Assembly (NCBI GenBank): GCA_025451375.1
Contig: JANWKL010000085.1
Coordinates: 1 to 37,849, forward strand
Source: Steroidobacteraceae bacterium
GTDB lineage: Bacteria > Pseudomonadota > Gammaproteobacteria > Steroidobacterales > Steroidobacteraceae
DNA: 37,849 nucleotides
Reading direction: 5' to 3'
Positions 31,231 to 31,423 of the stretch are shown here, piece by piece (positions within the stretch are counted from its first letter, which is position 1; every line of letters begins with the position of its first letter). The notes under the pieces are model-generated. The model did no database searches and was not told the origin of the DNA. It saw only the letters and a program-made list of their open reading frames with translations. A program made the translations under genes and the position numbers.

Positions 31231-31257
31231 CTGTGCCCGCAAGAGCCGCGGGCACAG
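31231..31257 (-). terminator. Perfect 10-bp stem-loop upstream of rpiA
   Basis: CTGTGCCCGC / AAGAGCC / GCGGGCACAG is a perfect inverted repeat between the tiny Lys-rich gene and rpiA. On minus it lies about 50 bases after the peptide stop. It lacks a U-run, so it may be a Rho-assisted terminator or a 3'-stabilising hairpin, or may regulate rpiA from its leader. Confidence 0.5.
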
Positions 31258-31274
31258 TGTTCGAATTCGACTCA

Positions 31275-31294
31275 GCGGCCACTTACGTGGCCGC
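31275..31294 (-). terminator. 8-bp GC-rich stem-loop after the Lys-rich peptide gene
   Basis: GCGGCCAC / TTAC / GTGGCCGC is a perfect inverted repeat starting 13 bases after the peptide stop on minus. It has a four-base loop and no clear U-run. With the next hairpin it would give a short structured 3' end. Confidence 0.45.
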
Positions 31295-31307
31295 CGAGAT
31301 AAGGCCA

Positions 31308-31358
31308 CTATTTCTTCTTAGCAGCTTTCTTCTTGGCCTTCTTCTTTGCCTTCGCCAT
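31308..31358 (-). CDS. Tiny 16-residue Lys/Ala peptide
   Basis: On minus, ATG 31358 starts MAKAKKKAKKKAAKKK and a TAG. GGAG lies about seven bases upstream, and a near-consensus promoter lies just before that. The peptide is made only of Met, Ala and Lys, with ten Lys in 16 residues, like the tail of histone-H1-like or other nucleic-acid-binding proteins. It is far below the track cutoff; the listed 31308-31862 frame ends in it but is otherwise antisense or shadow sequence. It could be a real micro-protein, a ribosome-stalling leader, or a marker ORF in a small RNA. No function is assigned. Confidence 0.55.
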   Translation of the reverse strand: MAKAKKKAKKKAAKKK

Positions 31359-31395
31359 GTTAGATCTCCAAATTGACGGGTTAGTCCGGGGTCCG

Positions 31396-31423
31396 AGTAT
31401 ATACACGCGAATGTAAATTACAA
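31396..31423 (-). promoter_or_regulatory. Near-consensus sigma70-type promoter for the Lys-rich peptide gene
   Basis: On minus, TTGTAA (31418-31423) and TATACT (31396-31401) are separated by 16 bases. This is one of the best -35/-10 pairs in the window, and the locally AT-rich stretch stands out against the surrounding GC. The expected start near 31389 leaves a leader of about 31 bases holding the GGAG ribosome site. Confidence 0.6.

Follow-up and report, generated by a model that had tools for sequence, protein, structure and literature searches.

A conserved 16-codon Lys/Ala micro-ORF upstream of rpiA in Steroidobacteraceae and its long H1-like relatives at the same locus

Layout of the unit on the minus strand

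What would a bacterium encode in a reading frame of only 16 codons, made of Met, Ala and Lys and flanked by a promoter-like sequence and two hairpins? This question is raised by a short segment of the window, the whole stretch of 37,849 nucleotides analysed here (contig JANWKL010000085.1 of a Steroidobacteraceae bacterium). The initial annotation had described a promoter, a leader with GGAG, the small frame and the hairpins, and all of these parts were located on the minus strand, at 31423-31230, where they form a unit flanked by fau and an EVE-domain gene on one side and by rpiA on the other. The sigma-70-type promoter (31423-31396) has a -35 element TTGTAA (31423-31418), a 16-nt spacer and a -10 element TATACT (31401-31396) within TATATACTC, and it is the single promoter-like site in 2 kb, against 0.2 expected from shuffled sequences. 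Transcription is predicted to start near 31389, and a GC-rich discriminator and 5' leader, CGGACCCCGGACTAACCCGTCAATTTGGAGATCTAAC, follow at 31395-31359. The Shine-Dalgarno (SD) motif GGAG (31369-31366) stands 7 nt upstream of the ATG at 31358, which opens the micro-ORF MAKAKKKAKKKAAKKK (31358-31308, 16 codons), composed of 10 Lys, 5 Ala and Met and closed by a TAG stop (31310-31308). The frame stays open upstream as far as 31862, so that automatic annotation could call an ORF of 184 aa overlapping the EVE gene; the start that is conserved in the alignments is the ATG after the SD.

Hairpin 1 (31298-31271), between the stop codon and hairpin 2, has 12 bp and a 4-nt loop, and because one of its pairs is G-U it is not strictly perfect, as both hairpins had been called. 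Hairpin 2 (31258-31230), of the form (ACT)GTGCCCGC...GCGGGCAC(AGT) with 11 bp, is a probable transcription terminator. The downstream neighbour, outside the unit, is rpiA (ribose-5-phosphate isomerase A), at 31211-30552. Further upstream, a 6S RNA (Rfam RF00013, 56.2 bits) was found on the minus strand at 32765-32576, just upstream of fau, where other gammaproteobacteria have it too; mechanically called ORFs overlapping this RNA are likely spurious.

Conservation of the unit and of its position

Chance or a local artefact as the origin of the unit was ruled out by its conservation in relatives. The initial annotation had judged it too ordered to be noise and had made its reading depend on conservation of the frame and the promoter; both are conserved, and the unit recurs in relatives at the DNA level. 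A DNA search of 40 relatives gave matches in 22, mostly among the 24 genomes classed as the same genus, a tally that includes a few short matches, those in other families being pieces of longer Lys-rich genes. A pattern made of promoter and leader matched in 145 of the order's 396 genomes, as a rule at one site each, and the same pattern reversed matched in none of them; several genomes have two matches, which are located at contig ends. In a class-wide search of 274 genomes, just two matches were found beyond two family genomes, both outside the order and both unlike the unit in sequence within the pattern, differing after its start. The unit recurs in the same slot throughout the family of the window, which we call Steroidobacteraceae here because the named records that carry the unit include several Steroidobacteraceae MAGs. 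Three MAG records (L168, L104 and L145) are titled Klebsiella pneumoniae, Candidatus Planktophila lacus and Janthinobacterium lividum, respectively; they carry a Steroidobacteraceae-type unit together with fau and rpiA, so that their titles look wrong.

The genomic position is equally constant. Where a locus extends far enough, it nearly always has fau, (EVE), the Lys/Ala ORF and rpiA in this order on one strand, with rpiA directly 3' of the unit. An apparent absence of rpiA next to the unit in some members of the genus was rejected, as the gene is present there with DNA too divergent for the first alignment. A further 30 rpiA loci came from genomes that lack the exact promoter pattern, including four out-group genomes. 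All nine loci from the family hold an ORF of 15-28 aa upstream of rpiA, and a short or long ORF is found in 11 of the 17 from other families of the order, where three of the six misses have less than 400 nt upstream. Outside the order, no Lys-rich ORF was seen upstream of rpiA in any of 29 genomes, a few of which had little upstream sequence; this count includes the four out-group loci (0/4).

Across the genus, the alignment shows a nearly invariant block, TATATACTC-N-CGGACTAACCCG-N-GGAG, followed by the ORF and the hairpins, whereas the flank upstream of the unit is not alignable. The 115 distinct short units keep TATATACTC intact in 112 cases and show conservation of the -35 region CTTGTAA; in 85 of them SD and ATG are 7 nt apart, and their discriminator has 81% G+C. 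GC-rich discriminators are of the kind found at growth-regulated promoters, and by this analogy the composition suggests growth-rate or stringent control. The leader CGGACTAACCCG (31395-31370) is nearly invariant order-wide, as CGGTTAACCCG in other families. Thus, promoter, leader, frame, peptide, hairpins and the position between fau and rpiA are all conserved in the sequences compared.

Coding signal, RNA structure and competing readings

The 115 distinct short units have ORFs of 14-30 aa. Eighteen different DNA sequences all encode exactly MAKAKKKAKKKAAKKK, and the 17-mer MAKAKKKAAKKKAAKKK is encoded by twelve, in which each of the 11 columns that vary is a third codon position. When the length classes are pooled, the variable columns number 30, 29 and 74 at codon positions 1, 2 and 3, respectively (p = 1e-7, an approximate value given shared ancestry, with a signal diluted by pooling different proteins of the same length). 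Beyond the Met, the residues of the short forms are limited to K, A, T, V, S, G, R and P, plus one internal M, and the ORFs end in TAA (77), TAG (28) or TGA (10). By these substitution patterns, the micro-ORF is under coding selection.

Two of the functions initially suggested are disfavoured by these data. A poly-Lys stalling ORF fits poorly because relatives encode 75-195 residues in the slot and the Lys codons are mostly AAG (1062 vs 203), with A-runs of at most three in 68 of the 115 short units, as would be expected if slippage is avoided. The idea of an sRNA with a decoy ORF is weakened because it is the amino acids rather than the nucleotides that are conserved, and because hairpin 1 is absent in some relatives.

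The RNA is nevertheless structured, and a broader alternative is that the functional product is a regulatory RNA (a 160-nt transcript comprising the invariant leader and both hairpins), with the ORF as a passenger or the RNA having a dual function. The fold of 31391-31231 is better than those of dinucleotide shuffles (z = -4.88; none of 200 as good). On the genus alignment, the structure as a whole pairs in 94% of cells, against 33-48% in slid controls, and hairpin 1 in 99%, with compensatory changes, five of its 12 pairs being changed on both sides; at least two hairpins are predicted from the stop codon to the end of the terminator in 97 of 110 short units. The fold and the conserved hairpins, together with the leader motif CGGACTAACC, invariant across the genus, speak for an RNA product. 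Against it stand the third-position variation under an identical peptide, the range of the ORF from 14 to ~195 codons while it stays Lys/Ala-rich throughout, and hairpin 1 itself, which is missing or different in other genera (L059 has a single hairpin, without hairpin 1). In addition, Rfam 15 gave no relevant family for the window at or above the gathering score, nor any for the unit at a relaxed threshold, the only hits being the 6S RNA and, elsewhere in the window, a tRNA. In our view an RNA product is unlikely. MAG contigs from four genomes (G005, G090, G184 and G384) end or start inside the unit, as if assemblies break at the hairpins.

The outer part of hairpin 2 aligns poorly between sub-groups, but nearly all relatives have its GTGCCCGC/GCGGGCAC stem. 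In long-ORF families (L040, L041 and L043) a canonical T-run follows this stem, which makes hairpin 2 most likely a terminator; a terminator scan of the window did not flag it because the T-run is degenerate here (CGCATC, and CGTTTC in most relatives). With hairpins lying between the unit and rpiA, which is nearly always directly downstream on the same strand, the unit could be a leader peptide, in which translation of the Lys run decides read-through of hairpin 2 into rpiA. We regard such attenuation as improbable. A leader peptide would have its length and control codons fixed against mutually exclusive hairpins, whereas here, judged on length, the ORF varies more than tenfold, with 75-195 codons in the slot of relatives; the AAG-rich Lys codons and short A-runs suit smooth translation; and fau upstream is as constant as rpiA, which points to a conserved gene block.

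Long relatives and the proposed role of the peptide

In the order's other families, the slot codes for proteins of 20-195 residues made of Lys, Ala, Arg, Thr, Val and Ser, with Pro and Gly completing the set of residues in the long forms. They share with the short units the promoter/leader/terminator frame and the place upstream of rpiA. Short and long forms alike have the composition of bacterial histone-H1-like (H1-like) proteins, in which Lys and Ala prevail and acidic and aromatic residues are absent. They also show the variation in length, by repeat number at a fixed locus, that is typical of such proteins; here it spans 14 to ~195 residues in the slot that separates fau from rpiA. The curated H1-like models (Pfam HC2 and NCBIfam hist_H1_lk_Burk), for which a 16-mer is too short, gave only sub-threshold scores in the five relatives searched: one of the five matched, scoring 18 bits where the cut-offs are 40 and 80, and the best E-values of long forms were 0.0034 (HC2) and 0.0021 (hist_H1_lk_Burk). 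Hence, we propose that these proteins work like H1-like proteins and belong to the same locus family within the order, not that they are members of Hc2 or AlgP. Homology to the named H1-like families would rest on composition, and homology within the order on the common locus, promoter and terminator.

In the RpiA tree, about six changes of the short label are needed, at least three of them forced by well-supported branches, in a tree with many weak forks whose bootstrap is not fully settled. Short forms make up two separate clades, one in the family of the window and the other in part of family f15, which also has long forms, and a 61-aa form (L215) sits within a short clade, as one re-expansion, indicating that the length of the ORF changed repeatedly. 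In f15, shortening seems the simpler reading, a direction argued for that family alone and not for the window's own. Twelve genomes of the family that have short forms were searched for a further long H1-like gene and gave none, a result limited by low-complexity scoring.

Several known systems resemble this arrangement, and H1-like Lys-rich proteins elsewhere, among them Hc2, BpH1 and AlgP, show binding to DNA and RNA and variable repeat numbers. Hc2 (hctB) of Chlamydia and the Hc2-like BpH1 of Bordetella are Lys/Ala-rich proteins whose repeat number and length change with flanking DNA intact, and DNA (and RNA) binding is reported for Hc2; they differ in having 149-237 residues and another genomic context (PMC2848022), whereas the family of the window has 14-30 residues and a conserved promoter, leader and terminator. 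The C-terminal domains of AlgP and PhaF in Pseudomonas are also H1-tail-like, Lys/Ala-rich disordered segments, and AlgP associates with polyphosphate granules while its KPAA-repeat peptides bind DNA in vitro, but these tails are attached to an N-terminal helical domain and are not stand-alone micro-proteins (PMC9239181). The repeats differ as well, being KPAA in AlgP/PhaF and KKA/KAKKK at the unit locus. For two further proteins, ScvA and Hq1 of Coxiella burnetii, we know of neither size plasticity nor a link to rpiA. By description they are like the unit in being small, basic, gammaproteobacterial and DNA-binding, and they differ in being enriched in the small cell variant (PMC4766238). A literature search for Steroidobacter histones or Lys-rich microproteins found nothing relevant. 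The initial statement that no named family of this kind is known thus holds for the 16-mer itself, but not for its long relatives, which are of the known H1-like Lys-rich kind.

Taken together, the unit probably encodes a translated and probably well-expressed polycationic micro-protein of 16 residues, which would belong to a size-plastic H1-like family and bind DNA, RNA or polyphosphate. The nucleic-acid-binding micro-protein put forward at the outset is strongly favoured by the coding selection and by the promoter, leader, terminator and locus held in common with long H1-like proteins, and the 16-mer would be among the smallest members of a Lys/Ala-rich family that occupies this locus in most of the order's families. 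Its own strong promoter would drive transcription, which would terminate at hairpin 2, before rpiA. The micro-ORF would then be translated, and the Lys-rich peptide, presumably disordered, would bind polyanions (DNA or RNA, possibly polyphosphate) and act as a small condensing or screening factor of low sequence specificity. The sub-threshold scores of the long forms count against this explanation, as does the conservation of the leader, which exceeds what a plain 5' UTR needs; in addition, binding by a 16-mer may be too weak, or the peptide may be degraded. A small basic ribosome-associated peptide, similar to bTHX, instead of a nucleoid or polyanion factor, would agree with the basic composition and with the discriminator, given what is generally known of growth-regulated promoters. 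It is nevertheless very improbable, as products of 14 to ~195 residues without a fixed sequence motif are unsuited to a fixed binding site on the ribosome. More tentatively, and with chances that we put slightly below even, the free Lys/Ala peptide of 14-30 residues found family-wide may be an abundant nucleoid or polyanion "micro-histone", shrunk at least twice from a long H1-like protein while promoter, leader and terminator stayed nearly unchanged.

This conserved protein-coding gene came to light through reading raw sequence; at its length, standard gene callers would probably pass over it. With H1-tail-like proteins of 14 to ~195 residues behind a single conserved promoter, the locus also provides a natural size series in which the role of tail length in bacterial H1-like proteins can be tested directly. 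In one genome of family f16 (locus L021, genome G039), an open frame at ~603 to 1851, which by eye we take to be adenylate-kinase-like, runs into a Lys/Arg-rich, H1-like tail of ~190 residues.
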